DNA of 43,230 nucleotides from positions 1 to 43,230 of the IMG/VR virus record IMGVR_UViG_3300025704_001179. One strand, given 5' to 3'. Below are positions 15,844 to 43,230 of this stretch, piece after piece; the stretch's first letter is position 1, and the number at the start of each line of letters is the position of its first letter. This stretch comes from a virus. The notes under the pieces were generated by a model that was not told the DNA's origin, ran no database searches, and saw only the letters and a program-made list of their open reading frames with translations. Position numbers and translations under genes: made by a program.

Positions 15844-15846
15844 AAT

Positions 15847-17070
15847 TTAATATCCTAAATTATTAAGTGCATTTGAAGCAACCTGTGCTAATTTTTGATC
15901 ACCAGCTGCAATTTTATTCGATATTTGCGAATCATATGCTGCCTTTTGCGAAGCAGAGGCATTATTATAGTCATTAACACTTACGTTTGGTATTGCTCCA
16001 CTGTTAATTAATGCAGGATTTACTTGATTCTTGATAGCAGGCGATAGTAACAACCCGGCGATTTGACTGCTAGATAATGTTTTTGAATTATTAGATGTTG
16101 TAGTTATAGGTGTTTGTTGATTTTGTGGATCAGGCACCGGCAGTTTATTTTGTGATAGTATATTAGTTACCACTCCACCGATAACACCTGTTGCAACTTG
16201 CTTTAAAATATTTTTGCTCGGACTGTTACTATTACCAAATGCTTTATTTAATAACGCCGAAGTACCTAACCCAATTAATGCAGGCAGTAATCCTTTTTCG
16301 CCGCCGCCTGGGATCATAGCATCATCGAGATAACCTAGTGGGCTAGGTGTTACATCATAACCTACACTTTGATCTGCAAATCCTGCTGGAGTGTCTCCAG
16401 CAACAGTGCCGCTAGTATATTGTACTGCTTCGTATGCAACACTCATTGTGTTTTCATTGAACTCACTGCCATTACTGTTAACATCGCCATGATCCCATGC
16501 TGTTAACAAAGGATTAACTAAAGTATATGCTACCCAATTTCTGCGTGACAATTGATAAATTGTAATGCTTTTAAAAAATGGATTTCTTTTGCTATTATCT
16601 AGACCGTAACTGGGCACTCTAGCAAAATACTTGTCTCTAGGTCCATATGCACCGTCAACTCCGTTTGTAACTTTATTGGCATCAACAAAATAATATCTGT
16701 AGTATTCTTCTAGTAATGCTCTAGTTACACCAGTATTATCATCGTGAAACGTAATTCTACAATCTTCGTAGTCAACTCGAGTTTGTACATTCTTTTTACG
16801 ATTGTATTGTTGTTTGTTTTCTACACTTGCTCTAAAACTAGGCAAGTCTGCACTTTTAACTAATACTCCTAATTCTTTTTGAAATCTAAAAACATTTGAA
16901 GTTGCACTATTACCTATTTCATCGTTAGGATCAAACCTAACATGATACATGTATTTTGTTTTAGGAGAGAACGCAAAGTTGTTTTGAGTATAGATTTGAT
17001 TTGCGTGACGAGCGTCACGCAAATGTGTCTCAGATTGAAGGTTGAATAGGAATGCATCTTTTAAACTCAT
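15847..17070 (-). CDS. Tail-tube-fold protein, probable gp54/gp48-like tube initiator
   Basis: 407 residues. The N-terminal half looks like a tail-tube fold: MYHVRFDPNDEIGNSATSNV, then FRFQKELGVLVKSADLPSFR, NVQTRVDYEDCRITFHDDNT and SVAYEAVQY. This matches the layout of gp19 (next gene upstream) and of T4 gp54/gp48, which cap the baseplate and start the tube. The C-terminal 150 residues are Gly/Asn/Ser-rich with hydrophobic stretches (LLPALIGLGTSALLNKAFG, ATGVIGGVVTNIL) and may be a flexible or baseplate-inserting tail. The start ATG is 5 nt from a late-promoter motif. A gp54 assignment is likely but not proven. Confidence 0.55.
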   Translation of the reverse strand: MSLKDAFLFNLQSETHLRDARHANQIYTQNNFAFSPKTKYMYHVRFDPNDEIGNSATSNVFRFQKELGVLVKSADLPSFRASVENKQQYNRKKNVQTRVDYEDCRITFHDDNTGVTRALLEEYYRYYFVDANKVTNGVDGAYGPRDKYFARVPSYGLDNSKRNPFFKSITIYQLSRRNWVAYTLVNPLLTAWDHGDVNSNGSEFNENTMSVAYEAVQYTSGTVAGDTPAGFADQSVGYDVTPSPLGYLDDAMIPGGGEKGLLPALIGLGTSALLNKAFGNSNSPSKNILKQVATGVIGGVVTNILSQNKLPVPDPQNQQTPITTTSNNSKTLSSSQIAGLLLSPAIKNQVNPALINSGAIPNVSVNDYNNASASQKAAYDSQISNKIAAGDQKLAQVASNALNNLGY

Positions 17071-17075
17071 ACTAA

Positions 17076-17083
17076 TATTTATC
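17076..17083 (-). promoter_or_regulatory. Late promoter motif, possible leaderless start
   Basis: Minus strand GATAAATA, then TTAGT and the ATG at 17070. There is no room for a Shine-Dalgarno, matching the arrangement at 11630. Confidence 0.55.
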
Positions 17084-17110
17084 CTTACGAATTATCTGCG
17101 TATATAAAGA

Positions 17111-17141
17111 AAAGCGAAGATTGTCAGACAATCTCCGCTTT
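17111..17141 (-). terminator. Terminator downstream of gp19
   Basis: On the minus strand AAAGCGGAGATTG TCTGA CAATCTTCGCTTT, followed by TCTTTATATA. The stem is 12 pairs with one mismatch (A against C in the middle) and a 5-nt loop. It ends gp19 transcripts before the next late promoter. Confidence 0.75.
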
Positions 17142-17172
17142 CTATATAAAACACCAACCTTAACTAAGCGTA

Positions 17173-17817
17173 TTAGCCAGTAACAGTTGTTCCGCCTGTT
17201 GACGCTGCAATTGCTCTTGCAGTTGCTTCGCCGATGCCTTCGAATGATTCGTCTGCACCAAACTGGATAGCGTTATCGTAACTAATACTTAGTGTAGTTG
17301 TTACTGCTTCGTTAGTAGCATATGCTAGTGAGTTGTAGTTAGCTGATTCAATGTAGCAACCTATTAATCTAAAGCGATCAATAACTGTTGCACCGTTTGC
17401 ACCATTTCCACCGTCTAGTATTTCGATGCTAGTTTGGAATTTGTATGAGCCACTTGATACTGCACTTGACTGCTCGAAGAAATCGAACTGCTTTTGTAGC
17501 TGCTGACCAACAACTTTTTGTACGTTGTTGTTTGCATCTTCGCGTAGTGTAAGTGTAATTGGTTCCCATGTGTGCTTACCTGCAAGATATGTTTTGCTGT
17601 TGTAAGCTTCAATTGTCATTTTTTCAAAACTTACGTTTGGACGAGTTACGTCCACTACTTGTCTTGAAATTTCTCTTGTACCATCTGGTCCACCAGTAGT
17701 ACCAAAATTATCTAGTAATACTCTAAAGCGATACTGTAGTTTAGGCATCAATAATGATGAGTTACTTCCAGCGCCTTCAGTAGGTACACTAATATTTTGT
17801 AAAGTTGTGATTGGCAT
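17173..17817 (-). CDS. gp19: Tail tube protein gp19
   Basis: 214 residues (T4 gp19 is 163). It forms the inner tube of the contractile tail. Landmarks are KLQYRFRVLLDNFG, then RPNVSFEKMTIEAYNSKTYL and WEPITLTLREDANNNVQKVV, then SSGSYKFQTSIEILDG and FRLIGCYIESANYNSLAYAT. This is the usual tube fold of two beta sheets and a helix. AGGAGAACATA gives a good Shine-Dalgarno before the ATG at 17817, with a late promoter directly upstream. It lies between the sheath gene and the gp54-like gene. Confidence 0.9.
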   Translation of the reverse strand: MPITTLQNISVPTEGAGSNSSLLMPKLQYRFRVLLDNFGTTGGPDGTREISRQVVDVTRPNVSFEKMTIEAYNSKTYLAGKHTWEPITLTLREDANNNVQKVVGQQLQKQFDFFEQSSAVSSGSYKFQTSIEILDGGNGANGATVIDRFRLIGCYIESANYNSLAYATNEAVTTTLSISYDNAIQFGADESFEGIGEATARAIAASTGGTTVTG

Positions 17818-17833
17818 TATGTTCTCCTATACA

Positions 17834-17841
17834 GTATTTAT
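17834..17841 (-). promoter_or_regulatory. Late promoter of gp19
   Basis: Minus strand ATAAATAC, then TGTATAGGAGAACATA and the gp19 ATG. The wider string ATAAATACTGTATAG is identical to the one upstream of gp18 (21269-21283). Confidence 0.75.
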
Positions 17842-17846
17842 GCCTC

Positions 17847-17874
17847 AATGAGTGGAGGTAAAACTCCACTCATT
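17847..17874 (-). terminator. Hairpin downstream of gp18
   Basis: Perfect 11-bp stem AATGAGTGGAG / CTCCACTCATT with a 6-nt loop, starting 12 nt after the gp18 stop. No T-run follows on the minus strand; the gp19 late promoter starts within 6 nt. It may be a transcript-end processing or stability hairpin rather than a strong terminator. Confidence 0.65.
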
Positions 17875-17885
17875 ATGTGCGCATA

Positions 17886-20800
17886 TTATCCTAGTGCTGC
17901 AATTTCGCCTGTGTTCTTAATACGCAACGGAATGTAAATAAATTCAATTGCTTTTACTGGCTCAATAGCAATGTCTAAGTATAGCTCATTTCTATCAATT
18001 CTTGCAGGTGTGTTGTTTGATTCATCACACACTACTAAGAAGTCATAAAGTGCTCTTAGTGCTACTAGTTCTAGTAACAGTGCATCTGCTGCTGCTTTAA
18101 CTTGATCACGTGTGATCTTGTCATTTGGCTCAAACAAGTATGGTTTTGCCAACAGCTCTAGCTGTCCACGTAAGTAAACAGTTAGACGTGCTACGTTTAC
18201 ACGATCCAATGCACTTGCATTTCTTGCACGAGTCTTCTGTCCAAATACAACAAGTCCTGCACCACTAATAAATGTGATTGGGTTTATGCTGTTGCTGTAC
18301 AATGTATCGCGCTGTCCAGTGTTTAGTGCTACTGAAACAAATTCGCCTTCGCTATTAATGTAACCTGAACTTGTAGCATTGCTTACGCCACCACGTCTTG
18401 TACCTGCTGGAGCAAACCAGGGAAACGCAACTTGGTCGTTTAGTATAATAGTACGTAATGCCATGTGTGATGCTGGAACAACAATGTTATTACCTGCATT
18501 ATCACTTGTAAAGCCTGCGCCATAATACATAGCCATGTACTCGTCAAAGCTAACTGCACCATTGTCGTTATCTTCTAGTGCTAGTTTAACGTTAGTTGCC
18601 CATTCATTCAATGAAGTTGCATCTGGTGTTAAACGTAATGGTGTGTCACCAATAACAAATGCTGTTAAGCGTCTATCATAGTTTAGTGTGATCATTTCAC
18701 CAATTAGCTCTGGGTAACCTGGAGCTGCAATTAAGTTAAACTGACGACTTTCTTCGTCACGGATATCTTGGTTACTGTTAACAGTTGCTTGTAGTGCTTG
18801 TACAACACTCTTACGCTGTGCGTGACGTCCAAAGCTTCCTGAACCATCTGCTTGGTTACCTGAATCAGTAACCCAACGATGTGGGTAGTAAGCTGCCATT
18901 GGAGCGCCAGCATCTACGCCACCTTGACGAACGTTTTTAGCTGTTAAGTCAACATAGTTACGTTCAAAACGCTTAACGTTAAATCCGCTTCTGCGTAGAT
19001 TCCATAGCAACATACCTTTTGGATATAGTGTAGGATCTGGTGCATCTGTGTCTAGATAATCACTTACTAGTAATTCTGCAATAGTTGCACTTGGTGCATC
19101 GTCTTTTGTGCCGCCTGTATCGCCATCACGTGCATCTGCAAATAGTACACCGTTTTCAGTTGTTTGATCTGCTTTATCCATTAAGATCCAACCACTTGCA
19201 CCTGTTGCTGCAATTGTTGGATTATACTTGTAAATTGCTGGATAATTTTCAACATCTGCTGTACTTACCCAAATATCGCCTTCTACTAGATTATTGCCGT
19301 TGTCTTGCTTAATAGGTGCTGTTGCTGAAACCATCGGTCCTTCTGCGTTAGTTCCGCTATATGGACTTGAATCAGCTGATAAGCCAGTACCGCCAACATA
19401 GTTTAATCCAACCCATGTGTCGCCATTATGTACCATAATATCTACTTCGTCAACAACACTACTATACCATAATTGTCCGTGTGCAGGTAAACTTAATGGA
19501 ACTGAACCAGATGCTGTGTAAGTTAGTGGCTTCCAGTTAGATGCTACTAATCCAGTTGCATTTGGTCCTACATACAAGTTTACTGTATTTGCTGCACTAA
19601 ATCCGTATAATGCTAATCCACCGTCGGTGTCAACAATCTTAATGTCGCCGCCTAGTTTGTGCTGGATTACAACTCTATTTTGTGCGTCAACTAGTGCTAT
19701 AACATTTGTTAAACCTTTTGCATTAATTGCTGCTGCTAATAAATCTGCGTCAGTAGTTGCACCTGTAGTTATAACACTTACTGTTACAGGAGCAGTCATT
19801 GCTGCTGTGTTTGCTCTTGTTTCAGATAAAGTAAATGTATAAGTACCTGCTGCAACACTAGTAACTACTGTACCAGTAATGCTTGTTGCTCCTGCTGATG
19901 CTCTTGTAAAGATTTTGTAGTTACCAATAGGATTAGCAAGTTCGTCTACATTAACATTAACATAAAGTGCTCCAGTTAATAAGTTTGTGCCACCGCCAGT
20001 TTTATCAAGCCCATAAATTGCGCCTTGTGGCGTAGTGTAAAGTGGTGCTGTTACAGTTGACCATAGCTGTGTAGCTGTGCTGTACTGCTTAACACTCAGT
20101 TTTGCGCCACCGTTTGGTGTAGTTGTTTTAATCCAAACTGAGCCACTCGGTGCTGGTGTTGTGTCGCCTGATTTAAATTCAGGGACGCTAGTGTGTGGTG
20201 CTGGCTGTAGTCTCGGTGTACTATAGGTAGCTGCTGTAAGTCCTAAGTCTCCTAGCAAGTCGCCTGATCCGCCAGCTGCAATAGCAACTTTACTATCAGC
20301 TGTTCCGCCAGTTGATGCACTTAAACTATTGCCGTAAATTTCAATTGAACCATCAACTAGTGCTGCCGATACCCCTGCAATTCCTGCTGCATTAATAATT
20401 GAAACAAGATCTGCAATATTTGTTTCAGCACCTGTAAAGTTTACAGGAGTAGTATTAATTACTATTCCTTCACTTGCTGCACCTGCTGTTGTTAAGTCAG
20501 GGTTACTTGCTGTACCGCGTGTAACTGCCCAACTTGCTTTCCAGTTGTCGCTGCCTACTTCTACCCAAGTGCCGCGATTTGTTAATCTTTGAGCTGTTGT
20601 ACCGTAACCTGGTGTTTTGTAGTACAAACGGTTCATTGTATCGTTTGCGTCTACAGCATAGTCGCCAATTTGACCGATTGATGCTTTCGGCGCACTAGCT
20701 AAACCTGCGCTTAAATCAGTAACTACAGTTAATACTGTTGGTGTTTTTGCTGTAAATGTTTGGCCGCCTGTTACTGTAATTGCTGCGCTATTCCATTCGA

Positions 20801-21239
20801 GAATTCCAAAATTGCTTGTTGAAGTGTCAAACCAGTAAGCGCCATTTGCTGGATCGCCGCCTGGTGCTGATGCACTTGCTGTTAATTCTGCTGTGTCTAA
20901 ATTAGCTCTTACAACGTATACACGATTCGACACGCCTAGTGCTGAATAAGCAGCTTGTAAGCCATACTCATTAAGCTCGCCACCGTGGATCATATTGCCG
21001 TTGTTGTCGCTGTAAAATAAAGGGTCGCCAAATGTTTCACCAAGCTCTCGTTGACTAGTGATCAAATATGGTTTTCCTGCGTTTGCTGTAATTGTACCTG
21101 CTGCTGTTCCTGTCCCACTGCTTCTAGTTTTATTACTAGCAGTAGCAACAAAGATCATAGGTACCGTTCCAGCTGATGCTGGAGTGTAGAAACTTTCGTC
21201 AATTACATTGACTTCTACGCCTGGTGATACTAATGCCAT
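17886..21239 (-). CDS. gp18: Tail sheath protein gp18, enlarged
   Basis: 1117 residues against 659 in T4. It forms the contractile sheath. The N-terminus MALVSPGVEVNVIDES and the region up to SNRVYVVRANLD are sheath-like. The C-terminal 400 residues hold the conserved sheath core: IAAPGYPELIGEMITLNYD, PWFAPAGTRRGGV, NPITFISGAGLVVFGQKTR, ARLTVYLRGQLELLAKPYLF and EFIYIPLRIKNTG. Between them is an insertion of several hundred residues with repeated Gly-Asp-x-Trp units, probably a surface-exposed domain. I use the ATG at 21239 (AGGAGAATAAC upstream) rather than the longer frame from 21302, which runs into the promoter. Confidence 0.93.
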   Translation of the reverse strand: MALVSPGVEVNVIDESFYTPASAGTVPMIFVATASNKTRSSGTGTAAGTITANAGKPYLITSQRELGETFGDPLFYSDNNGNMIHGGELNEYGLQAAYSALGVSNRVYVVRANLDTAELTASASAPGGDPANGAYWFDTSTSNFGILEWNSAAITVTGGQTFTAKTPTVLTVVTDLSAGLASAPKASIGQIGDYAVDANDTMNRLYYKTPGYGTTAQRLTNRGTWVEVGSDNWKASWAVTRGTASNPDLTTAGAASEGIVINTTPVNFTGAETNIADLVSIINAAGIAGVSAALVDGSIEIYGNSLSASTGGTADSKVAIAAGGSGDLLGDLGLTAATYSTPRLQPAPHTSVPEFKSGDTTPAPSGSVWIKTTTPNGGAKLSVKQYSTATQLWSTVTAPLYTTPQGAIYGLDKTGGGTNLLTGALYVNVNVDELANPIGNYKIFTRASAGATSITGTVVTSVAAGTYTFTLSETRANTAAMTAPVTVSVITTGATTDADLLAAAINAKGLTNVIALVDAQNRVVIQHKLGGDIKIVDTDGGLALYGFSAANTVNLYVGPNATGLVASNWKPLTYTASGSVPLSLPAHGQLWYSSVVDEVDIMVHNGDTWVGLNYVGGTGLSADSSPYSGTNAEGPMVSATAPIKQDNGNNLVEGDIWVSTADVENYPAIYKYNPTIAATGASGWILMDKADQTTENGVLFADARDGDTGGTKDDAPSATIAELLVSDYLDTDAPDPTLYPKGMLLWNLRRSGFNVKRFERNYVDLTAKNVRQGGVDAGAPMAAYYPHRWVTDSGNQADGSGSFGRHAQRKSVVQALQATVNSNQDIRDEESRQFNLIAAPGYPELIGEMITLNYDRRLTAFVIGDTPLRLTPDATSLNEWATNVKLALEDNDNGAVSFDEYMAMYYGAGFTSDNAGNNIVVPASHMALRTIILNDQVAFPWFAPAGTRRGGVSNATSSGYINSEGEFVSVALNTGQRDTLYSNSINPITFISGAGLVVFGQKTRARNASALDRVNVARLTVYLRGQLELLAKPYLFEPNDKITRDQVKAAADALLLELVALRALYDFLVVCDESNNTPARIDRNELYLDIAIEPVKAIEFIYIPLRIKNTGEIAALG
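19180..20845 (-). repeat. Trp-motif repeats in the sheath insertion
   Basis: At least five degenerate copies of a short unit with the form G-x-x-W/Y-x-x-(S/T) ... x-W. Examples are PANGAYWFDTSTSNFGILEW, then NRLYYKTPGYG to GTWVEVG, GSVWIKTT to QLWSTV, GQLWYSSVVDEV to GDTWVGL, and EGDIWVSTADVE to SGWILMD. They look like beta-hairpin decoration repeats. A similar unit is found in gp14 and gp15. Confidence 0.6.
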
Positions 21240-21275
21240 GTTATTCTCCTGTTGGATGTTAGTGTTTTCTATACA

Positions 21276-21283
21276 GTATTTAT
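21276..21283 (-). promoter_or_regulatory. Late promoter of gp18
   Basis: Minus strand ATAAATAC followed by TGTATAG, then a leader of about 30 nt with AGGAGAATAAC before the ATG at 21239. Confidence 0.75.
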
Positions 21284-21339
21284 TATAATAGACACAAAAC
21301 ACCTAGCATATACCACAGAAAAAGGTACCAAAAAGGTGA

Positions 21340-26655: not shown

Positions 26656-27096
26656 ATGAACAATCGTATTACATGTAGCGGTGCGCTATTTTACACACTA
26701 GATACAAATAGATTTTTATTTCTGCACAGGGCGCAAGGCAAGCGTAATAATTTGTGGGGACTCGTTGGCGGCACAAACGAAGGTGCCGAAACTCCGTGGG
26801 AAGGTTTAAAAAGAGAAATTGAGGAAGAAATTGGATTTGTTCCTGATATTAAAAAAACACTTCCTTTGGAAAGTTTTATTTCACCTGACAGTAGGTTTTA
26901 TTTTCATACATATCTTTGTGTTATTCAAGAAGAATTTATTCCTAAACTTAATAATGAACACGATGGATATGCTTGGTGCAGTTTTACTAAGTGGCCAAAA
27001 CCGTTGCACCACGGCTTGCGCAACACACTTCAAAGTAAAATTAATCTTACTAAGCTAGATACTGTATTTCAAACTATAAATCTTCTTGACAAATAA
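26656..27096 (+). CDS. Nudix hydrolase
   Basis: 146 residues. The Nudix box is at residues 39-61: GTNEGAETPWEGLKREIEEE then IGF, fitting G-x5-E-x7-R-E-U-x-E-E-x-G-U, with the metal-binding glutamates intact. ITCSGALFYTLDTNRFLFLH is the usual first strand pair. Phage Nudix enzymes clean up nucleotide diphosphate derivatives, including nucleotide sugars, which suits the heptose genes that follow. It may be the first gene of the plus-strand sugar operon. The 48 nt upstream show only a weak AT-rich promoter-like stretch. Confidence 0.85.
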   Translation: MNNRITCSGALFYTLDTNRFLFLHRAQGKRNNLWGLVGGTNEGAETPWEGLKREIEEEIGFVPDIKKTLPLESFISPDSRFYFHTYLCVIQEEFIPKLNNEHDGYAWCSFTKWPKPLHHGLRNTLQSKINLTKLDTVFQTINLLDK

Positions 27097-27114
27097 CTCA
27101 AAAGAAAGTATAAT
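27086..27114 (+). promoter_or_regulatory. Perfect sigma70-type promoter of hldE
   Basis: TTGACA (27086-27091) and TATAAT (27109-27114) with a 17-bp spacer: a full consensus match in spacing and both hexamers. It lies at the end of the Nudix gene. The hldE ATG at 27121 is 6 nt after the -10 box, so the transcript probably begins at the start codon (leaderless). Confidence 0.75.
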
Positions 27115-27120
27115 AGCGTT

Positions 27121-28257
27121 ATGAAAGTATTAATTATTGGCGACATAATAATCGACAAATATATCTATGGAACAAGCACACGTTTAAGTCCTGAGGCTCC
27201 TGTGCCTGTAGTAGCACAAAAACATGTTGTAGAAACTACAGGCGGCGCAGGGCTTGTTTACGAAAACTTAAAAAGTCTCGGTGTTGATGTTGAGCTGTTT
27301 GAGTATGCATCTAAAAAATGTGTAAAGACTCGTGTTATGTGTGACGGACATTATGTTACACGCATAGACGACGATCATTATGCAGACGGCGTTGAAGTTT
27401 GCAACACAATTCTTCGCAACGACTTTAGCAAATACGAGTATGTAATACTAAGCGATTACAACAAAGGTGTATTAGACGAGTCTATTAAGATTATCGAACA
27501 TCTTAATAAATTTGGATGCCGTGTAATTGTTGATCCTAAGTCACATGCAGAAAACTACGAAGGTGCATGGTTAGTTAAACCCAACGAAAAGGAATTTCAA
27601 GAATACTTCCTTAATTGGCACGGTAATATTATTACAACAAGAGCAGGCAAAAGTGTTGTTGCTAAGATCGACAATGAAGTTTACGAAGTAGATGTTGACA
27701 CTGTTGAAGTTAGTGATGTAACTGGTGCTGGAGACTGTTTCCTAGCTGCATTTGTTTATGCCCTTACAAAAGATTATGATTACAAAAAAGCAATTGAACT
27801 AGCAGTTAAAGGCTCACGCGAAAGTGTTCAGCACACGGGCACGTATACGCTTGCTGTAAGCGACTTGGAAGAAAGAGTAGTGTTTACTAACGGAGTGTTT
27901 GATATACTGCACAAGGGTCATTTTGAGCTCTTAGCAGAAGCACGTACACTGGGTGATAAACTAATTGTAGGCATTAACAGCGATGCTAGTGTAAAGCGTC
28001 TTAAAGGCGAAACTAGACCTATTAACAACCAAATGAAACGTATCAGTCAATTAGAAATATTGTCGTGGGTAGATCAAGTAATCGTGTTTCACGAAGATAC
28101 ACCTTACGAATTAATTAAGGAATTAAAACCGCATGTTATTGTTAAAGGCGGCGACTATACAGTAGAACAAGTTGTTGGACACGACTTAGCAGATGTACAT
28201 CTAGTACAAACTGTAGAAGGTTATTCAACAACTGGCATTATAGAAGCAAGTAAATAA
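27121..28257 (+). CDS. hldE: HldE-like heptose-7-phosphate kinase / ADP-heptose synthase, shortened
   Basis: 378 residues (E. coli HldE is 477). It should phosphorylate D-glycero-D-manno-heptose 7-phosphate at C1 and later attach AMP. The kinase domain (about 1-245) has TRLSPEAPVPVV and the PfkB signature DVTGAGDCFLAAF near 199. The transferase domain (about 250-378) has FTNGVFDILHKGHFELLAEA with HxGH at 264-267, then VGINSDASVKRLKGETRPIN and VKGGDYT, ending in STTGIIEASK. These match HldE closely. The kinase domain is short: a roughly 30-residue stretch before KKCVKTRVM and another of about 20 near residue 180 are absent, and GGAANVA is changed to GGAGLVY. Kinase activity is therefore less certain than transferase activity. 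Confidence 0.88.
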   Translation: MKVLIIGDIIIDKYIYGTSTRLSPEAPVPVVAQKHVVETTGGAGLVYENLKSLGVDVELFEYASKKCVKTRVMCDGHYVTRIDDDHYADGVEVCNTILRNDFSKYEYVILSDYNKGVLDESIKIIEHLNKFGCRVIVDPKSHAENYEGAWLVKPNEKEFQEYFLNWHGNIITTRAGKSVVAKIDNEVYEVDVDTVEVSDVTGAGDCFLAAFVYALTKDYDYKKAIELAVKGSRESVQHTGTYTLAVSDLEERVVFTNGVFDILHKGHFELLAEARTLGDKLIVGINSDASVKRLKGETRPINNQMKRISQLEILSWVDQVIVFHEDTPYELIKELKPHVIVKGGDYTVEQVVGHDLADVHLVQTVEGYSTTGIIEASK

Positions 28258-28281
28258 GAGAATTATGGAGAATTTTAATAA

Positions 28282-28911
28282 ATGACCAATGATGTATTTG
28301 TATTTGATGACATTGTGCCAGAGTGGTTATATGAGTCTATTAAAAAAAATATTTTATCAATACCAGTAACGTGCCAACATCATGGCATTGGACCTGATGT
28401 AGGTCACTCTTTTTTTAGTAAAATATGGCCGTTATTTGGATTACACGAAATTCCGTGGGAATACAAAGCAACATTTGCTGCACTTAATGATTCTAGAAAT
28501 AAATTGAGCAAAGAAGACGAAGTATTGCCATTGCACTTAATTCAGTGTCAACTTAATCTAACTACAAAAACCTTAGTAGGAGGAGTACATGCAGATATGG
28601 GGCCTCCGGCATGGACCATGGTGCATCTTATTTCTGGTGACACTGGCATGGACTTCTGGACTGATTATCCCGATAACGGTGGCAGAAAAATATGCGAAGT
28701 AGATTATAAAGATAACCGTTGTATCATATTTCCAAGTGATATATGGCATCGAGGAATTCCCACAATTGATGTCGAGCCTCGTATAACTTTGGGTTATATA
28801 TTTGGTGGGCCGCCGCAGAGCCAGCACGAACACGATAACAATATAATAAGTCCTATATTTAAAAAAGATTGGAGTAACAAATTAATGAAAACAGCTGAGA
28901 GAAACAAATGA
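28282..28911 (+). CDS. 2OG-Fe(II) oxygenase-like protein
   Basis: 209 residues. The iron triad is visible as H103-x-D105 in GGVHADMGPPAW and H156 in SDIWHRGIP, with R167 in EPRITLGYIF as the 2-oxoglutarate contact. These sit on a double-stranded beta-helix layout. Phages carry many such oxygenases, and their targets include sugars, proteins and bases. It is sandwiched between hldE and hldD, with GGAG upstream and a 4-nt ATGA overlap with hldD, so a role in heptose or glycan oxidation is plausible but not proven. Confidence 0.75.
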   Translation: MTNDVFVFDDIVPEWLYESIKKNILSIPVTCQHHGIGPDVGHSFFSKIWPLFGLHEIPWEYKATFAALNDSRNKLSKEDEVLPLHLIQCQLNLTTKTLVGGVHADMGPPAWTMVHLISGDTGMDFWTDYPDNGGRKICEVDYKDNRCIIFPSDIWHRGIPTIDVEPRITLGYIFGGPPQSQHEHDNNIISPIFKKDWSNKLMKTAERNK

Positions 28912-29732
28912 AAATATTAGTTACTGGACATAAAGGATTTATTGGATCGAACATTGCATTATATTTGCAATCGCAAGGACACGATGTAGAAGGTTGGGAG
29001 TGGGAACCTGGTATTATTCCCAGTACAGAGGATTACGACTGGTGTATACATACAGGTGCTATTAGTAGTACAACATATACGGATGTAAATCAGATACTAG
29101 AACAAAACTTTGAGTTTACTGTAAGATTAGCACAAGTGTGTGAAAACTTTGGTACTAATTTACAATACGCTAGTAGTGCTAGTGTTTATGGACCCACTGA
29201 ACACTTTACAGAAAATGGTCCATTGCTCCCGCAAAGTCCTTATGCTTGGAGTAAGTACCTGTTTGATAGATTTTTAGGTCAATTTCAAGACGAGTTTGAA
29301 ATTATTATTCAAGGATTCCGTTACTTTAATGTTTATGGACAAGGCGAAGAACACAAAGAAGATCAAGCAAGTCCAGTAAGTAAATTCACACATCAAGCAA
29401 AAGATTTAGGGGTTGTGACATTATTTGAAGACAGTGAAAAATATCTAAGAGATTTCGTATGTGTCGACGATATATGCAAACTACATGAAAAAATGTTCGA
29501 AGTGACTCAATCGGGAATTTTTAACGTGGGCACAGGTGTTCCTGTAAGTTTTGATACTGTTGGCAGAACAATTGCTAAAAAGTACAATTCAGATATTAGG
29601 TATATTCCTATGCCAGAAAATATTAAGTCGCAATATCAAAAGTATACCTGCGCAAACTTAACTAATTTAAATAGTGTAGTAGATATGCAATGGACAAATG
29701 TAGAGGATTATATAAATGCAAGAACCAACTAG
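28908..29732 (+). CDS. hldD: HldD-like ADP-heptose 6-epimerase
   Basis: 274 residues (E. coli HldD is 310). It should convert ADP-D-glycero-D-manno-heptose to the L-glycero form. NAD(P) binding is at GHKGFIGSN near residues 7-15. The HldD-specific motif CIHTGAISSTTYTDVNQILE is present. The SDR triad has YASSASVYG (Ser) and YAWSKYLFD (Tyr112-x3-Lys116). GFRYFNVYGQGEEHKEDQAS is almost the diagnostic HldD segment, and RDFVCVDDICKLHE, then SGIFNVGTGVP, follow. It overlaps the oxygenase by 4 nt and the cupin by 17 nt. Confidence 0.88.
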   Translation: MKILVTGHKGFIGSNIALYLQSQGHDVEGWEWEPGIIPSTEDYDWCIHTGAISSTTYTDVNQILEQNFEFTVRLAQVCENFGTNLQYASSASVYGPTEHFTENGPLLPQSPYAWSKYLFDRFLGQFQDEFEIIIQGFRYFNVYGQGEEHKEDQASPVSKFTHQAKDLGVVTLFEDSEKYLRDFVCVDDICKLHEKMFEVTQSGIFNVGTGVPVSFDTVGRTIAKKYNSDIRYIPMPENIKSQYQKYTCANLTNLNSVVDMQWTNVEDYINARTN

Positions 29733-30108
29733 ATTACAAGGCGTAGTACCCAAAGGTTGGGGATACGAACTTATTTGGGCCACTAACGATAAGTATTGTG
29801 GTAAAATTATGTTTTTTGAAAAGGAAGGCGCCCAATTCAGCATGCACTTTCACCGAGAAAAGGACGAAACATGGTTTGTAAACACAGGTAAATTCAAAGT
29901 ACAATGGATTGACACTGATACTGCTGGGCTATATGAAAAAGAATTAAATGAGGGTGATGTTTGGCATAATCCTCCGCTACAGCCACATAGGTTGATTTGT
30001 CTACAAGGCAGTTCTAGCATTACCGAAGTTAGCACAGCTGATAGTGTAGAGGACAATTACAGAGTTGCTCCAGGTGACAGTCAACGGTCAAAGGAAAAAA
30101 ATGGCTAG
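29716..30108 (+). CDS. Cupin, sugar-phosphate isomerase-like
   Basis: 130 residues, a single cupin domain. Metal-site motifs are FSMHFHREKDETWFV (His-x-His and Glu) and GDVWHNPPLQPHRLI (second His). It resembles the C-terminal cupin of mannose-6-phosphate isomerase type II and the cupin fused to the nucleotidyltransferase at 3123-3896. A role in isomerising or binding a sugar phosphate of the heptose pathway is inferred from the operon, as it overlaps both hldD and gmhB. Confidence 0.7.
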   Translation: MQEPTRLQGVVPKGWGYELIWATNDKYCGKIMFFEKEGAQFSMHFHREKDETWFVNTGKFKVQWIDTDTAGLYEKELNEGDVWHNPPLQPHRLICLQGSSSITEVSTADSVEDNYRVAPGDSQRSKEKNG

Positions 30109-30721
30109 GAGTGTATTAGACAATGCGTTTGTAAACAATACTAATCAAATTAATGATAGTAGCATTTACAACAAACCGGTAATAGGCCTGGATCGAGATG
30201 GTGTATTGAATGTCGATCTTGGAACATATGTTACCACTCCTATGATGTTTGATCCTATACCGAGTAGTTTAGAAGCTGTTGCATTATTGAGGTCTAAAGG
30301 TCATAGGATAGCAGTTATTACCAATCAAGGAGGAATCGAAAAAGGCTTGATGACTCCAGCTGATGTAGATGCAGTAAATAATAGAATGCTCGAGTTACTG
30401 GGACAAGCAGGCTGTCCTAGTATTGATGCCATCTACTATAGTGCCAGTAGTCGTAAGAATGACATGTATGCTAAACCAAATATCGGAATGTTTAAGCGAT
30501 GTGAGAAAGAACATCCGTATATTAAATTTTCAAAAGGTTTTTTTGTTGGTGACAAACTTAGTGACCTAAAAGCCGCCTTCAAAATAGGTGCTAGACCTAT
30601 ACTGGTTAGAACTGGGTACGGCCTAGAAACCGAAAAACAATTAAACAAACACGCATACAAACAGATTAAAAAACAAACACTTGTGTTTGATAATCTTTGG
30701 GAGTTTGCACAAGCCCTTTAG
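30101..30721 (+). CDS. gmhB: GmhB-like heptose-1,7-bisphosphate phosphatase
   Basis: 206 residues from the ATG at 30101, preceded by AAAGGAAAAAA and overlapping the cupin stop by 8 nt. HAD motif I is GLDRDGVLNVDLG (catalytic Asp31 and Asp33), motif II is VITNQGGIEKG, and motif III/IV is GFFVGDKLSDLKAAFKIGAR. These match GmhB (E. coli 191). GmhB normally has a zinc loop with Cys and His between IYYC and the KPHPG segment; here it reads IYYSASSRKNDMYAKPNIGM, with no Cys, so this is a zinc-less form. The stop codon lies in a palindrome shared with the convergent gene. Confidence 0.82.
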   Translation: MARSVLDNAFVNNTNQINDSSIYNKPVIGLDRDGVLNVDLGTYVTTPMMFDPIPSSLEAVALLRSKGHRIAVITNQGGIEKGLMTPADVDAVNNRMLELLGQAGCPSIDAIYYSASSRKNDMYAKPNIGMFKRCEKEHPYIKFSKGFFVGDKLSDLKAAFKIGARPILVRTGYGLETEKQLNKHAYKQIKKQTLVFDNLWEFAQAL

Positions 30722-37893: not shown

Positions 37894-37901
37894 GTATTTA
37901 T
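37894..37901 (-). promoter_or_regulatory. Late promoter of the small structural protein gene
   Basis: Minus strand ATAAATAC, then TATAAATTGGAACCATAAAC and the ATG at 37873. Confidence 0.7.
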
Positions 37902-37926
37902 GCTCTTACCAAGCATAAGTATTATT

Positions 37927-38637
37927 ATGAAAAATGGAAAACTTTGGATTTTTGGCGATAGCTACGGAACATTTCACCAATCAGGTGACGAAATTAAAGA
38001 CTGGCACTGGATGTGGAGTCTTACAGAAAAACTAGGCCATGAAAATTTTTATAATATATGCGAAGACGGTGTTGCTAACGAATGGATATATTACCAATTT
38101 ATAGATAATTCTTCGAATATAAATCCAGAAACAGACACTATTATTTTTATTACTACTCAAATAAATCGTCAATGGTTTTTTCCAGATAATGAAGGCGTAG
38201 GTAATATTCACATGGGTCCCCTCGACAATTATGTAACAAAAGACCAATCTAAAGCAATTAATTTATACATCAAACATCTAACAGATAATCCTCAGGATTC
38301 TATAAGATTTCAGTGGCTATTATATGGATTAAATTTTTTAAAAGAACAAAATAATTTAAATTTACTAATACTTCCTGGATTTGAAAATGAAGGATTCTTT
38401 TTAAATAATAATATTGCAGTAAAAGGTAGTTTACTCGATCCGTGTATTAACGAAGTAAAAGGCAAAAATATGCAATCTTGGTTGAACTGGAAGGGAAAAA
38501 TTAACGGGAAAGATCCTAGGGAAGGCCATATCTCCGAGTGCAATCATCTTATACTTTCTCAAAAGCTATATCAGACTATTAAACATAATCAAGTGTTAGA
38601 TTTAACCACAGGATTTGAACAAGAGTTTATAAATTAA
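37927..38637 (+). CDS. SGNH/GDSL-hydrolase-like protein
   Basis: 236 residues from the ATG at 37927 (an upstream in-frame ATG at 37900 lies in the late promoter motif of the opposite strand). KLWIFGDSYGTFHQSG contains the GDS block with the catalytic Ser, and NICEDGVANEWIYYQF has the Gly/Asn positions of blocks II-III. EGHISECNHLILSQKLYQ contains a late His that could complete the site. These enzymes remove or transfer acyl groups, often acetyl groups on polysaccharides. It is the only plus-strand gene here and overlaps the next (minus) stop by 4 nt. Activity is inferred. Confidence 0.6.
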   Translation: MKNGKLWIFGDSYGTFHQSGDEIKDWHWMWSLTEKLGHENFYNICEDGVANEWIYYQFIDNSSNINPETDTIIFITTQINRQWFFPDNEGVGNIHMGPLDNYVTKDQSKAINLYIKHLTDNPQDSIRFQWLLYGLNFLKEQNNLNLLILPGFENEGFFLNNNIAVKGSLLDPCINEVKGKNMQSWLNWKGKINGKDPREGHISECNHLILSQKLYQTIKHNQVLDLTTGFEQEFIN

Positions 38638-39332
38638 GATTTTTTAATATGTAAATACCAGATATCATTAGGATAAGTTACACTCAAACAATAATTTTCA
38701 ATTCTTAATCCGTTATCTTCGATCATCTTCGCAAATGTTTCTGGATTACTACCTTTTGTATTTTCCATTAGTACAATATCAGCATCATCAGTTATATAGC
38801 TACTAACAGTATTAAAAAAATCTTGATGTATGTTCCAGTTTTGATCTTTATATTTTCGATGCTCGTTAGGGTCGATATTTCCAAATGACGGAGTAAAGCT
38901 AAAATGCGGCGGATTTCCAATTATTAGATCATATGCTATGTTTGTAGGATGACTTTTAAAATTATTAGACAATACAAAATTTACATTATTATTAAGATTA
39001 TTTTTATCTATAGTTTTTTCTACTACAAATTTATTTGGCTCGTGTATGTCTAATAATGTAAGACGTTCTGTTAAGCCTTGGCTTAATGTTCCAAAACCTA
39101 AATATCCAGGGCCAGAACACCATTCTAAACAATGATTATATATTCTGCCATTTGAAAAATGATTAATACAGGATACGGCATCAGCTGCTGTCTGATAACC
39201 GTATCCATCTAATTTATTCGATGAGTAGACTAAAAATTTATCTAGTCTAACTTCAACAATGTCTGTATTAAGCAACTTTCCAATTTCCGACTGTAAGAAG
39301 CTTTCCGTATTCTGGCAAATACAAATATTCAA
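38634..39332 (-). CDS. Class I methyltransferase with NPP motif
   Basis: 232 residues. LEWCSGPGYLGFGTLSQGL is motif I, LTLLDIHEPNKFVVEK is motif II, and YDLIIGNPPHFSFTPSFG is motif IV (NPPx), which marks N-methyltransferases of the HemK/PrmC or adenine type. The start at 39332 overlaps the carbamoyltransferase C-terminus by 65 nt; an alternative TTG at 39275 has a weak ribosome site. The target could be a protein glutamine, a base or a small molecule. Its place next to the carbamoyltransferase suggests sugar-related chemistry, which would be unusual for this motif. Confidence 0.65.
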   Translation of the reverse strand: MNICICQNTESFLQSEIGKLLNTDIVEVRLDKFLVYSSNKLDGYGYQTAADAVSCINHFSNGRIYNHCLEWCSGPGYLGFGTLSQGLTERLTLLDIHEPNKFVVEKTIDKNNLNNNVNFVLSNNFKSHPTNIAYDLIIGNPPHFSFTPSFGNIDPNEHRKYKDQNWNIHQDFFNTVSSYITDDADIVLMENTKGSNPETFAKMIEDNGLRIENYCLSVTYPNDIWYLHIKKS

Positions 39333-41067
39333 TCTTACTTTCGCTCAGTGTCCAAAGTGCATCTTCTAATGTTTCTACAAGAGGTTCTCCGCCTAGATTA
39401 AAACTAGTATTAAAGATAATCGGAACTCCAGTCTTTTCTTTAAATGCCTTAATCACTCGGTAGTAAAGAGGATTTTCTTCTTCAGTAACTGTCTGAATGC
39501 GACATGTACCGTCCACATGAATAATACTAGGTATTTTTTCAGCAATGCCTGGTTGACAATTAACAGCATACATCATATGTGGACTGTCTTCCATTCCCCG
39601 TAAATCAAACCATTCGTGTGCGTCTTCGGCAAGTATTGATCCTGCAAACGGACGGAAGTATTCTCGATGTTTAATTTCATTAACGAAATCTTTGCCATCT
39701 TCAAAGGTCGGATCGAACATCAACGAACGATTTCCTAATGCACGTGGACCGTTTTCAGCACGACCTTGAAACATTGCTACAATATTCTTATTAGTCATTA
39801 ATTCGATAACGTCATCGTCTGTTGCATCAGTAACAATAGCATTATATTCTTCTGCCAATTTAGTAATATCTTCATCTTTATAATTATACTGAGGACCTAG
39901 ATAAATTTCTCTAGGCTGTGATTCTAAAGATTGACTAGTAGCATAATAATATAGTAAAGCAGCGCCAATGGCTGTTCCGCCATCATTTGATATAGGCTCA
40001 ACAAATAATTCGATACCTTCTTCATTAAGCCTATTAAGATACCAGTAGTTTGCTACACAGTTTAATCCGTAGCCGCCAGATAGTACTACTTTATTTTTAC
40101 CTGATAATTTTGTAGCAGACAAAATTATATCTAATGCTTGTTCTTGTGTTTCTTGTTGACATGCATATGCTAAGTCTCTTCGATTTTGGTACTCTGTCCA
40201 AGTATGGTCATCTCCAACAGGACTATCTGACAATTCTTCATAATTTTTATGATTTACTATTGCAGCATTTGGATATGTTGGAACGAAAAGACTTCTATCA
40301 GCTAGTGGAATTTTAGTACTGTTTAAAAACAGTTTGGGTATATTACTATTTTCTTTACCGTATGGAAATAGTCCCATTGTTTTACCTGCTTCGATTGCTT
40401 GGAAGCCGCAGTATTGTGTTACTGCTTCGTATACTTTTACTATGCCGGCGTGTCCTGAAACTACAGAAGTAAATGTATTGCCTTCTTCGCCAAACTGTGC
40501 TCCATCTGTATTGGTATTAATGGCTGTAACAATTGGATCTCTACATCCAAAATGTTTGTATAGAGTTTTAATATTGTCAGGATAAGAACAATCGTAAATA
40601 CTCTCAACTTCCCAAAGTAACACATTACCATCTTGAGTTTGTCCTGAAGTTGCAGATCCAGCGCCATCAATAACTACTGCTACAGCTTCGTCAAAGCCAC
40701 TCCTATAAAATGCACAAGCAGCATGTACTTTATGGTGTAAATGGGAAACATCGATACATTGTGGATGATCATGTATATCACCTTTTCTATCAATTAATCC
40801 CATTTTTCTAGCTAAACCTGAATAAAGATTATCGCCCGTATACTCTATTTTTGGTCCATCATTAATAGACGTTGTGTGACACACCACTAGTGCATCAATT
40901 TTATCAGTATATTCTTTTACTTTCAACATTGTTGCTAAAGGGCCGCCATCATACTTGTGTCTTGTAAAGCGTTCTTCTTCGCTTGCAAATACAATTTTAC
41001 CATCTTTAAGTAAGCAAACGCCTGCATTATGGCCTCTTGAAATACCTAAAATATATCCTGATGACAT
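39268..41067 (-). CDS. NodU/CmcH-type carbamoyltransferase
   Basis: 599 residues, the usual length. It transfers a carbamoyl group from carbamoyl phosphate via carbamoyl-AMP to a sugar hydroxyl. The N-terminal domain has YILGISRGHNAGVCLLKDGK, then FASEEERFTRHKYDGG, and the metal/nucleotide motif SHLHHKVHAACAFYRSGFDE. GGYGLNCVANYWY is present. The C-terminal domain has FQGRAENGPRALGNRSLMFD, then REYFRPFAGSILAEDA and IFNTSFNLGGEPLVETLEDA. All family motifs look intact. It lies next to the GT9-like heptosyltransferase gene. Confidence 0.9.
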   Translation of the reverse strand: MSSGYILGISRGHNAGVCLLKDGKIVFASEEERFTRHKYDGGPLATMLKVKEYTDKIDALVVCHTTSINDGPKIEYTGDNLYSGLARKMGLIDRKGDIHDHPQCIDVSHLHHKVHAACAFYRSGFDEAVAVVIDGAGSATSGQTQDGNVLLWEVESIYDCSYPDNIKTLYKHFGCRDPIVTAINTNTDGAQFGEEGNTFTSVVSGHAGIVKVYEAVTQYCGFQAIEAGKTMGLFPYGKENSNIPKLFLNSTKIPLADRSLFVPTYPNAAIVNHKNYEELSDSPVGDDHTWTEYQNRRDLAYACQQETQEQALDIILSATKLSGKNKVVLSGGYGLNCVANYWYLNRLNEEGIELFVEPISNDGGTAIGAALLYYYATSQSLESQPREIYLGPQYNYKDEDITKLAEEYNAIVTDATDDDVIELMTNKNIVAMFQGRAENGPRALGNRSLMFDPTFEDGKDFVNEIKHREYFRPFAGSILAEDAHEWFDLRGMEDSPHMMYAVNCQPGIAEKIPSIIHVDGTCRIQTVTEEENPLYYRVIKAFKEKTGVPIIFNTSFNLGGEPLVETLEDALWTLSESKIEYLYLPEYGKLLTVGNWKVA

Positions 41068-41069
41068 AA

Positions 41070-42077
41070 TTATTTTTCTCCTATTAGTTTTTTATTTGGT
41101 TTATCAAATATGGTCGAAGGTTTATTATTTGCCGACGGCAATTTCTTATTTGAACTTTCTGGTTTTCCGATTTTATCTGCGATACTTTTCATAATTTTTT
41201 TATAATTTTCCTCGTTTAAAATCATATTATCTTCGTTGTGTCTTTCTCTTGCAGGATCTTGAGTAACTCGATACGGCACGTATACTCTATTTTCTTTTCC
41301 GTTATCAATAATTGTAAAGTCTTTATTTCCTGGATAACTTATGTTTTCTGGAAAAGTTGATCCTATAACCACTGTTGCCGGTTTGCCTAATGCGTGGGCA
41401 TAGTGTTGTCCCATGCTATCGCAACCTAGAAAATAGTCTGCTGCATTAACTATTCCCGTCCACTGTAGCAAGCTTGCATTATCTGGTATAGCAGCACCCA
41501 TAGGCCTATCGGTTGGAATTTTGAGATTTGTCATTAATATTACTGCATAATCCTTAGATAGTTCGTCAACTATTCTAAACACATCTGATAATTCAAAACT
41601 GCGGCCACTTTCATCAAATACAAAATTGCCATCTATTTTAACACCGCTGCCAAATGGTTGAAAGACAATAACCTTTTCTTTTTTCATTTGTTGCTTAACT
41701 TGGCCTACTAAATTATACCCATAAATTTGATCGGCTTTTCCGAGATCTAAATTTATAGGCTTACTTTCTACAGCTTCGTCAACATCATTAATAAGCATAT
41801 CAAACGCCTGTATTAAATTAACACGTTGATTAAAATAAGCATTTAGTCTGTAAGGCTCTGGACTAATAATTTCTCTATCTTTTAAAACAGTTTTAAATAA
41901 TTCTTTACTGCCTACTGGCCAAATATTATTTCGCAATTTTGAAGATAAGAACAGTTCATGCCAAGCTTCTGATACTATTACAACATCTGGATCAGTATGT
42001 TCTTTATAATACTCTAATGCAGGTATGCTGCATAACACACGGCCGGCTCCACCGTTAATAAAAAATGCTTTTTTCAT
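41070..42077 (-). CDS. GT9 heptosyltransferase-like protein
   Basis: 335 residues. The N-terminus KKAFFINGGAGRVLCSIPAL is the GT9 opening (glycine-rich, then Pro-Ala-Leu helix). The C-terminal domain has YFLGCDSMGQHYAHALGKPA and TVVIGSTFPENIS, which is the nucleotide-sugar-binding segment of ADP-heptose:LPS heptosyltransferases. VIVFQPFGSGVKID and DELSKDYAVILMTN are the Rossmann-like links. The last 40 residues are Lys/Asn/Ser-rich and probably a flexible extension. GT-B enzymes of this family use ADP-heptose, which this phage can probably make. AGGAG precedes the ATG. Confidence 0.72.
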   Translation of the reverse strand: MKKAFFINGGAGRVLCSIPALEYYKEHTDPDVVIVSEAWHELFLSSKLRNNIWPVGSKELFKTVLKDREIISPEPYRLNAYFNQRVNLIQAFDMLINDVDEAVESKPINLDLGKADQIYGYNLVGQVKQQMKKEKVIVFQPFGSGVKIDGNFVFDESGRSFELSDVFRIVDELSKDYAVILMTNLKIPTDRPMGAAIPDNASLLQWTGIVNAADYFLGCDSMGQHYAHALGKPATVVIGSTFPENISYPGNKDFTIIDNGKENRVYVPYRVTQDPARERHNEDNMILNEENYKKIMKSIADKIGKPESSNKKLPSANNKPSTIFDKPNKKLIGEK

Positions 42078-42095
42078 ATGTACTCCTAGGTAAAC

Positions 42096-42124
42096 ATTAT
42101 ACTATTAATTATTGTATATTTTAA
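42096..42124 (-). promoter_or_regulatory. Weak sigma70-type promoter upstream of the GT9-like gene
   Basis: Minus strand TATAAT (42101-42096) with TTAAAA (42124-42119) 17 bp upstream. The -10 is perfect, the -35 poor. Confidence 0.35.
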
Positions 42125-42143
42125 TATTATTAGACAGTTCTGA

Positions 42144-42725
42144 CTACGGAGAAGTATTAAAAGCTAAAGATACTCTACTATCTTTACTATGATTAGAAAC
42201 TACATCGTGATCCAAATAACTGGGAAACATTATTAATTCGTTTTCACAAGGATGGTGCGAATAGTAAGATTTCAATTCATCAATATCACGATCTGCTGCA
42301 TATGCCCATCCGTAATCTGAAAATTCTCTGCTTCTATAAAAACAAATAGGACTATCTGCATCTACAGGATATTTAATATAATATGTACCACTTATTACTG
42401 ATCCTGGATGACAATGTCTTTTGTTATAAGAATTAGTAGGATTAATATTAATCCAGGATTCTGTTATATATTGAGGCTTAATACAAATTTCCTTACAAAA
42501 AGATAATATATTTTTTTGTATGTTATTTAAAAGAGCTGGGATATAAGTAAGATTTTCTTTTTCAAAAAACTCGTTTGTAATATCAATTCTATCGCCGTTG
42601 ACGCCGCTGATTACTTTATTTGTGTAACCTTTATTCAAAAGAAAGCCTACTTCATCATATATTAGATGAGTAGGCTCTTTGAGGGTAGATATATTAATAG
42701 GTGTTGGAAATAAAAGTTTAATCAT
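42144..42725 (-). CDS. 2OG-Fe(II) oxygenase-like protein
   Basis: 193 residues, the size and layout of a common phage 2OG-Fe(II) oxygenase family. ESWININPTNSYNKRHCHPG, then SVISGTYYIKYPVDADSPIC, holds the N-x-H/H-x-H metal region (H104, H106), and ELIMFPSYLDHDVVSNHSKD, then SRVSLAFN, holds the distal His173 and Arg184. This arrangement matches the family's beta-helix. The substrate is unknown. It is the second such enzyme in the window, and like the first it sits next to glycan genes. A strong sigma70-type promoter and an inverted repeat precede it; AAAGGA is the ribosome site. Confidence 0.72.
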   Translation of the reverse strand: MIKLLFPTPINISTLKEPTHLIYDEVGFLLNKGYTNKVISGVNGDRIDITNEFFEKENLTYIPALLNNIQKNILSFCKEICIKPQYITESWININPTNSYNKRHCHPGSVISGTYYIKYPVDADSPICFYRSREFSDYGWAYAADRDIDELKSYYSHHPCENELIMFPSYLDHDVVSNHSKDSRVSLAFNTSP

Positions 42726-42774: not shown

Positions 42775-43230
42775 TTAATTGCATTCCCAGCTAACGCAAA
42801 CCATACCAAAGCGTCCTGAGTCACCTTGGCAACCGTTGCCGCCGCCACAACTATATGTGTGATAACCACCTGCTCCTGGTATTCTAAGATAACCGTTTGC
42901 TGCGTTCCAGTAACATCCGCGTAGTCCTTCATTCTGATCTACGCCAGAATAAGTTGCGTTACATACACAGCTTTCAAATCCAAATACCGGAGTTGACCAA
43001 CCCGAACTACCGTGTAAACATTGACCTGAACCGCCTGTACAATGTGCAGGCCAAAGGCCATTTAACCCATATTTTGTAATAGTTCTGCTGTCGCTTGCTC
43101 CACTATTTAAATGGAATGTTGTTCTTCTAGCAAATGCGTGACATGCTAAAGATTCATCCCAGTAATCGTCGTAACAGAAGTTCCAGCCGCTACATCTGTC
43201 TGCACTACATGTGCCGCCTGCTTGATCTGG
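42775..43230 (-). CDS. Cysteine-rich C-terminus of a probable adhesin (5'-truncated)
   Basis: The last 151 codons of a gene entering from the right edge; not a separate ORF with its own start. The segment has 13 cysteines, many next to Trp/Gly (DRCSGWNFCYDDYW, GLRGCYWNAANGYLRIPG, SYSCGGGNGCQGDSGRFGM), and ends in VCVSWECN. Cysteine-rich, Gly/Trp-rich C-terminal domains like this are seen at the tips of some marine phage tail fibres and resemble secreted or receptor-binding folds. A host-recognition role is inferred from composition, not from a family match. The N-terminus and total length are unknown. Confidence 0.6.
   Translation of the reverse strand, partial: PDQAGGTCSADRCSGWNFCYDDYWDESLACHAFARRTTFHLNSGASDSRTITKYGLNGLWPAHCTGGSGQCLHGSSGWSTPVFGFESCVCNATYSGVDQNEGLRGCYWNAANGYLRIPGAGGYHTYSCGGGNGCQGDSGRFGMVCVSWECN

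Follow-up and report, generated by a model that had tools for sequence, protein, structure and literature searches.

The virus contig analysed here (IMG/VR record IMGVR_UViG_3300025704_001179; the window is the whole 43,230-base contig) raises the question of what a phage would modify with a heptosyltransferase-like protein of family GT9 and a NodU-type O-carbamoyltransferase (CT) encoded side by side. A preliminary description had placed the two genes 2 nucleotides (nt) apart, with ADP-heptose-pathway enzymes 10 kb away, and had proposed that the phage adds or alters a carbamoyl-heptose on the lipopolysaccharide (LPS) of its host, changing phage receptors. The observation was confirmed: the gap between the two open reading frames (ORFs) is 41068-41069, the CT is complete, the fold of the GT9-like protein was identified by structure search, and HldE-like, HldD-like and GmhB-like genes lie at 27121-30721. 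The interpretation was supported in part. As described below, the phage probably glycosylates its own virion, with heptosylated, cysteine-rich tail proteins that carry a carbamoyl cap.

By sequence alone, the GT9-like protein was a weak candidate, scoring 12.8 bits against PF01075 (cut-off 22) over its C-terminal part, while its relative in Vibrio phage SBP1 passed this cut-off with 25.4 bits. Its strong PHROG match, phrog_8954, is annotated as 'unknown function'. An AlphaFold2 model built from 50 related sequences had a predicted local distance difference test (pLDDT) score of 88.5, and GT9 proteins made up 30 of its 31 best matches in the PDB, the remaining one being a chain of a photosynthesis supercomplex. 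The matches comprised WaaF (1psw, E=9e-9), 3tov, TibC (4rap and 4rb4), WaaC (2h1h and 2gt1) and 6dfe, with a Veillonella GT9 protein among them. Structure search thus settles the GT9 fold for the modelled protein, the weak sequence call being rescued only by the fold match. The C-terminal nucleotide-sugar motif D-[ST]-x(3)-H was present, with DSMGQH aligned to DTGLSH in WaaC and DSGLMH in WaaF, and D220 and H225 of this motif were invariant among relatives. The only conserved cysteines were C16 and C219; the four-cysteine iron finger of TibC (Cys339, Cys342, Cys358 and Cys370; PMC4358343) was not found among the conserved residues. On the predicted structure, the protein is a member of the GT9 fold, and its membership among the classical heptosyltransferases is unproven. 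We also considered whether the gene is bacterial and rejected this, since it was found on only eight contigs of metagenome-assembled genomes (MAGs), all with an adjoining CT and six of the eight with further module or tail-fibre-like genes, which are probably binned phage DNA. A scan of IMG/VR with the GT9-like protein of Aeromonas phage HJ05 alone gave no matches.

The CT carried both domains of its family over cut-off (PF16861, 197 bits; PF02543, 86 bits), and its best solved relatives were the carbamoyltransferases 7xb6, GdmN and TobZ. Its metal-binding and active-site residues H13, K38, H111, H115, D134 and D362 were conserved in 62 relatives. The phage CT therefore shares the sequence family, both domains and the conserved His/Asp metal ligands of NodU, TobZ and GdmN, but differs from them in its fixed pairing with the GT9-like protein. 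Co-occurrence across phages had been set beforehand as a test of the carbamoyl-heptose proposal. All 85 related loci had the GT9-like and CT genes side by side, an association far above chance, although the loci are related to one another and the p-values overstate their independence. HldE and epimerase genes were present in 30 of the 55 loci having at least 8.5 kb of downstream sequence, each time (30/30) with a small cupin gene. In the cyanophages P-SSM2, S-SSM7, S-CAM1 and Sf-FS3, the GT9-like, CT and heptose genes formed one compact operon beside tail-fibre genes.

These genes were under strong purifying selection, with ratios of nonsynonymous to synonymous substitution (dN/dS) of 0.025-0.064 for the GT9-like gene, about 0.06-0.07 for the CT, 0.08 for the epimerase and 0.06 for the cupin. 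Values of 0.02-0.08 contradict the view that the module is non-functional 'stuffer DNA' filling large heads, an option that the available text of Sullivan et al. (2010, PMC3037559) mentions for the LPS clusters of cyanophages. Considering also that residues of active-site type were invariant in 52-63 sequences, we regard that explanation as extremely unlikely. The CT of one locus (L003:1782-4591) was left out of the dN/dS reading as its sequence is identical to that of the window; the adjoining GT9-like gene stands at dS 0.6, which indicates a recent recombination breakpoint between both genes. The value for the HAD gene was likewise left out, because it arose from a frame error.

For the HldE-like, HldD-like and GmhB-like proteins, the best families were ADP-heptose enzymes. 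The HldE-like protein contained both kinase and adenylyltransferase domains and scored 283.5 bits against PRK11316 (equivalog cut-off 521) and 168 bits against both TIGR02199 and TIGR02198, and the HldD-like protein reached 227.7 bits against TIGR02197 (cut-off 274.6). The best PDB matches of the latter (1eq2, 2x6t, 4ej0 and 3sxp) were all HldD, and its K150, aligned with the second catalytic Lys of HldD ('EGHK'), was invariant in 29 relatives. In P-SSM2, the GmhB slot was occupied by an EcbF/BcbF-like HAD protein. The SIS domain of GmhA (PF13580) was not found in 17 virus records, including four complete cyanophages. A phage annotation as 'phosphoheptose isomerase' (phrog_1238; L082:16030-16374 and L083:20702-21037) was rejected as GmhA, the protein being actually a HAD phosphatase of the EcbF/BcbF type. 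The small cupin, found in databases under the misnomer 'cysteine dioxygenase' (phrog_7851), kept its HxH/E/H metal ligands among relatives, and its predicted structure (pLDDT 90.9) matched many cupins, including D-lyxose isomerase with bound fructose or mannose and an archaeal phosphomannose isomerase (PMI). Considering that the conversion of sedoheptulose-7-phosphate into manno-heptose-7-phosphate is chemically equivalent to that of fructose-6-phosphate into mannose-6-phosphate, the cupin may be a good but unproven substitute for GmhA. The phage gene set as a whole probably makes an unusual seven-carbon sugar with a carbamoyl cap. A second, shorter CT-like gene and a tryptophan halogenase were seen inside the heptose module of S-SSM7 and of a MAG contig (L083:15501-18645 and L092), where the halogenase might act on Trp-containing tail proteins.

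The putative acceptor was suggested by the genes upstream. An ORF with at least 6% Cys lay within 5 kb upstream of the GT9-like gene in all 66 loci with 3 kb of upstream sequence, and 140 of 287 ORFs near the gene reached 6% Cys, versus 2 of 511 elsewhere. When the locus set was widened, 125 of 129 loci had a neighbour with at least 4% Cys within 5 kb. The upstream proteins are about 6-12% Cys and Gly-rich, often stand two or three in tandem and contain many CC/CxxC pairs; two score at or above the cut-off of Pfam Gly_rich_2. Throughout the Gly-rich family, Cys was better conserved than any other residue at all identity levels above 40% (40-100%). In the complete genomes of S-CAM1, S-SSM7, SBP1 and HJ05, the ORF richest in Cys among those of 200 or more residues was the neighbour of the GT9-like gene, and a scan of eight complete genomes without this gene gave no ORF with at least 6% Cys and one with at least 4%. 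Cys-rich neighbours of the GT9-like and CT pair at L096:9068-12210 and L091:4661-6670 (758, 290 and 670 residues; about 10% Cys) had no match in the PHROG or Pfam families searched. A phage contig without a CT nearby is a further independent example, with a 167-residue ORF of 12% Cys adjoining the GT9-like gene (L206:4958-5458).

Such a neighbourhood could also arise if Cys-rich tail proteins and sugar genes merely travel together in an exchange cassette for tail fibres, without the proteins being substrates of the enzymes. Tail-fibre regions are mosaic, as the identical CT of L003 beside a diverged GT9-like gene illustrates, and no Cys-rich ORF was present in the available sequence of the divergent relatives L210/L211, L218, L241, L260 and L267. 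However, every INPHARED record containing the Gly-rich, Cys-rich family came from a phage or single-cell assembly that carries the GT9-like gene, and unrelated tail-protein families beside this gene are all Cys-rich. Likewise, phrog_8954 and phrog_4205 were both present in four cyanophages and both absent in eight others carrying CT or HldE. An unlinked cassette is thus an improbable account of the association.

Distant relatives of the GT9-like gene in Vibrio and Aeromonas phages also have Cys-rich neighbours, and the Vibrio tail proteins provided a natural experiment. The tail proteins directly downstream of the GT9-like gene, gp062 of Vibrio phage SBP1 and its homologue in D497, contain 41 Cys each, whereas 1-7 were counted in six homologues from phages confirmed to be without this gene. 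Within aligned stretches, the numbers of Cys in tail proteins with and without the GT9-like gene were 11 vs 0, 10 vs 0, 19 vs 3, 8 vs 2, 9 vs 0 and 7 vs 0. The residues replaced by Cys were of surface type, with Glu and Lys 1.9-fold over background and Ile and Phe at 0.35 and 0.26, in counts that overlap between homologues. In the first 264 residues, SBP1 and D497 had 11 of 14 Cys positions in common. Homologues of the Cys-rich protein of HJ05, sought for a second natural experiment, were not found. HldE was absent from SBP1, D497 and HJ05, and the organisms named by the CT search included no Vibrio or Aeromonas phage. SBP1, D497 and HJ05 infect gammaproteobacteria, hosts that can be expected to synthesise ADP-heptose on their own.

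From the gene linkage, folds, conserved residues, purifying selection and association with Cys-rich tail genes, we infer the enzyme activities, the acceptor protein, the position of the carbamoyl group and any effect on adsorption. Host sedoheptulose-7-phosphate would be converted to ADP-heptose by the HldE-, GmhB- and HldD-like enzymes and the cupin, the probable isomerase. The GT9-like enzyme would then transfer heptose to the Cys-rich tail protein(s) of the adjoining upstream gene(s), most likely at many sites in each and possibly at cysteine thiols, and the CT would cap the tail-protein sugar by O-carbamoylation. Further changes may come from the oxygenase and the methyltransferase. Where the host does not make ADP-heptose, the phage would bring the pathway itself; other phages would rely on that of the host.

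In addition to the divergent relatives mentioned above, several points weigh against this route. The catalytic Asp13 of WaaC is replaced by Arg13 in 63 of 63 GT9-like sequences (N-terminal loop 'SSMGDVLHTLPAL' in WaaC versus 'GGAGRVLCSIPAL' in the phage protein, at the same residue number in a hand alignment), and the Vibrio and Aeromonas phage relatives share GGxGR. In TibC, the corresponding Asp110 acts as the catalytic base, and the TibC family conserves it (PMC4358343). This replacement suggests that the acceptor chemistry differs from that of classical LPS heptosyltransferases, and the activity of the GT9-like protein is thus a prediction only. Of the ADP-heptose active site expected from the preliminary description, the nucleotide-sugar motif D220...H225 was kept and the catalytic Asp was not. 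The HldE-like and HldD-like scores were all under their equivalog cut-offs, and HldE was not found in 186-kb and 126-kb contigs with the GT9-like and CT genes, which shows that not every such contig has the heptose pathway. The contig end truncates the window's Cys-rich gene, and the virion role of its product is predicted only.

Since the relation between Cys enrichment and the GT9-like gene is a correlation, cysteine as the linkage atom is a tentative assignment. A thiol needs less activation than a hydroxyl, so a thiol acceptor would be consistent with the missing Asp base. In the most extensive form of this idea, an Asp-less GT9-fold enzyme would heptosylate dozens of thiols, and unrelated tail folds would have turned Cys-rich as acceptors; the CT would cap the sugars, the cupin would replace GmhA, and the pathway would be phage-borne where the host is without ADP-heptose. 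We put this forward with reserve, as a possibility. Alternatively, the GT9-like enzyme may O-heptosylate Ser, Thr or Tyr of the tail proteins, while Cys serves for disulfides or metal binding that stabilise the adhesin. This variant of virion glycosylation agrees with the Ser acceptors used by TibC and its kin (PMC4358343) and with the many CC/CxxC pairs. Nevertheless, it seems rather unlikely, as the Asp conserved in the TibC family is missing from the phage proteins and as Cys enrichment goes with the GT9-like gene across tail proteins of unrelated fold, in SBP1 and D497 also as scattered single Cys in place of surface residues.

Both linkages place the sugar on the virion. If the phage instead added a carbamoylated heptose to host LPS or another surface glycan, altering the receptor, the closest folds would be readily explained, as WaaC and WaaF act on LPS with ADP-heptose. 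The heptose pathway genes are also present, and cyanophage clusters are named LPS genes in the available text of PMC3037559. The analogy to the carbamoyl-heptose of Pseudomonas aeruginosa LPS core, drawn in the preliminary description, makes chemical sense, but none of the present results locates the sugar on LPS. Phages that carry the module include some propagated on Synechococcus WH8102 and WH8109, among them Sf-FS3, which was grown on WH8102 and has the module complete, whereas the LPS of marine Synechococcus WH8102 and CC9311 contains neither heptose nor 3-deoxy-D-manno-octulosonic acid (KDO) (PMC4515613). The Cys-rich tail-type neighbour in 66 of 66 loci and the absence of the catalytic Asp also argue against LPS. 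We therefore rejected host LPS as the main target on the heptose-free Synechococcus LPS and the tail-gene linkage, and consider a surface-glycan target improbable. This LPS argument covers the cyanophage relatives and reaches the window's host only indirectly, because the core genes at 6816-21302 (UvsX, terminase and tail sheath) resemble those of jumbo myoviruses of proteobacteria. With PA5oct, Atu_ph07, Phosso and Vibrio 2.275.O as their nearest phages, we rejected the window as a typical cyanophage; a cyanophage-type module sits here in a different T4-like lineage.

Virion glycosylation by this module would parallel TibC/TibA, in which a GT9 heptosyltransferase modifies its own adhesin. As in TibC/Aah with TibA/AIDA-I, a GT9-fold protein (TMq up to 0.57) is encoded next to an adhesin-type protein, here a putative substrate. 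The phage protein is shorter and has neither the iron finger nor the catalytic Asp, and the phage system differs in its Cys-rich tail proteins as proposed acceptors, its added CT and its own ADP-heptose pathway. With WaaC and WaaF, the GT9-like protein shares the GT-B/GT9 fold, the nucleotide-sugar motif and, as predicted, a likely ADP-heptose donor, but it differs in the invariant Arg13, in having no full-length sequence match and in its tail-gene and CT neighbours. If the sugar is S-linked, the system would resemble SunS-type glycocin S-glycosyltransferases in placing it on Cys. The SunS-type enzymes form a family unrelated to the GT9-like protein, and their substrates are small secreted peptides.

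Among the cyanophage 'LPS gene clusters', T4-GC 304, 305, 307 and 308 correspond to the HldE/cupin/epimerase group and T4-GC 303 to the CT (PMC3037559). In the available text of that paper, whether these genes have a real role or are stuffer DNA was given as unknown in 2010, their function was left open, and GC 302 (GT9-like) and the Cys-rich GC 299/301 and 1336-1338 were not connected to the cluster. A literature search of incomplete coverage gave nothing joining cyanophage, carbamoyltransferase and heptose, and nothing on a Cys-rich cyanophage tail protein. Virion glycosylation offers a testable function for these genes. If it is correct, the tails of abundant marine phages are glycoproteins made with an ADP-heptose pathway dedicated to them, which would matter for the shielding or tuning of phage tails; the module would also supply new enzymes for the S- or O-glycosylation of proteins, and perhaps a new isomerase. 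A sugar attached to cysteine would be a virion modification of a new type.

Table 1. Genes of the two groups in the window, with the basis of each assignment.
Feature	Position	Strand	Basis and remarks
NUDIX-type ORF, first of heptose gene group	26656-27096	+	Recognised by reading the sequence alone
HldE-like (heptose-7-phosphate kinase and heptose-1-phosphate adenylyltransferase)	27121-28257	+	PRK11316 best family
2-oxoglutarate (2OG)-oxygenase-like protein (weak match), within heptose group	28282-28911	+	Profile search
HldD-like ADP-heptose 6-epimerase	28908-29732	+	Profile, structure matches, conserved Lys
Small cupin with HxH/E/H metal ligands; candidate GmhA replacement	29716-30108	+	Conserved ligands, predicted structure
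HAD-IIIA phosphatase, GmhB-like (heptose-1,7-bisphosphate 7-phosphatase)	30065-30721	+	PRK08942, 124.9 bits (cut-off 178)
PF05175-type methyltransferase (phrog_35227)	38634-39332	-	Overlaps CT 3' end; TTG start uncertain
NodU/TobZ-type CT, 599 residues, complete	39268-41067	-	PF16861 and PF02543
GT9-fold glycosyltransferase-like protein, 335 residues, phrog_8954	41070-42077	-	Profile match and predicted structure
2OG-Fe(II) oxygenase (PF13759)	42144-42725	-	79 bits (cut-off 27); phrog_81
Cys-rich, Gly-rich tail-type protein, C-terminal part (151 residues, 13 Cys, 17% Gly)	42775-43230	-	5' end cut by contig end; proposed sugar acceptor

Transcription of the minus-strand group (43230->38634) runs from the Cys-rich protein through the oxygenase, GT9-like protein and CT to the methyltransferase. 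The truncated Cys-rich ORF has 82% nt identity to a complete ORF of 356 residues (L002:8739-9809), and relatives of its product match PHROG 35878/4205 and Pfam Gly_rich_2. The oxygenase gene, placed between the Cys-rich and GT9-like genes, encodes a possible hydroxylase of the adjacent Cys-rich protein. A relative of the methyltransferase is located inside the S-SSM7 heptose module. The heptose group (26656-30721, plus strand) lies about 10 kb from the GT9-like/CT group, with a 1939-residue tail-fibre-like ORF in between, so that the operon is split in the window, unlike the compact operons of cyanophages. Its NUDIX-first gene order was kept in L009, L045, L068 and L072.

Next to the minus-strand group, positions 37900-38637 (plus strand) encode an SGNH/GDS-like ORF ('IFGDSYGTF') that had no Pfam match and whose relatives lie near the module in many loci. 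At the other end of the window, a second glycan-type gene group (2-6154, minus strand) contains glycosyltransferase-like ORFs and an FkbM-like methyltransferase-type ORF. A fused nucleotidyltransferase and PMI-like cupin (TIGR02199, 72 bits; GMP_PMI, 54 bits) is encoded at 3123-3977.

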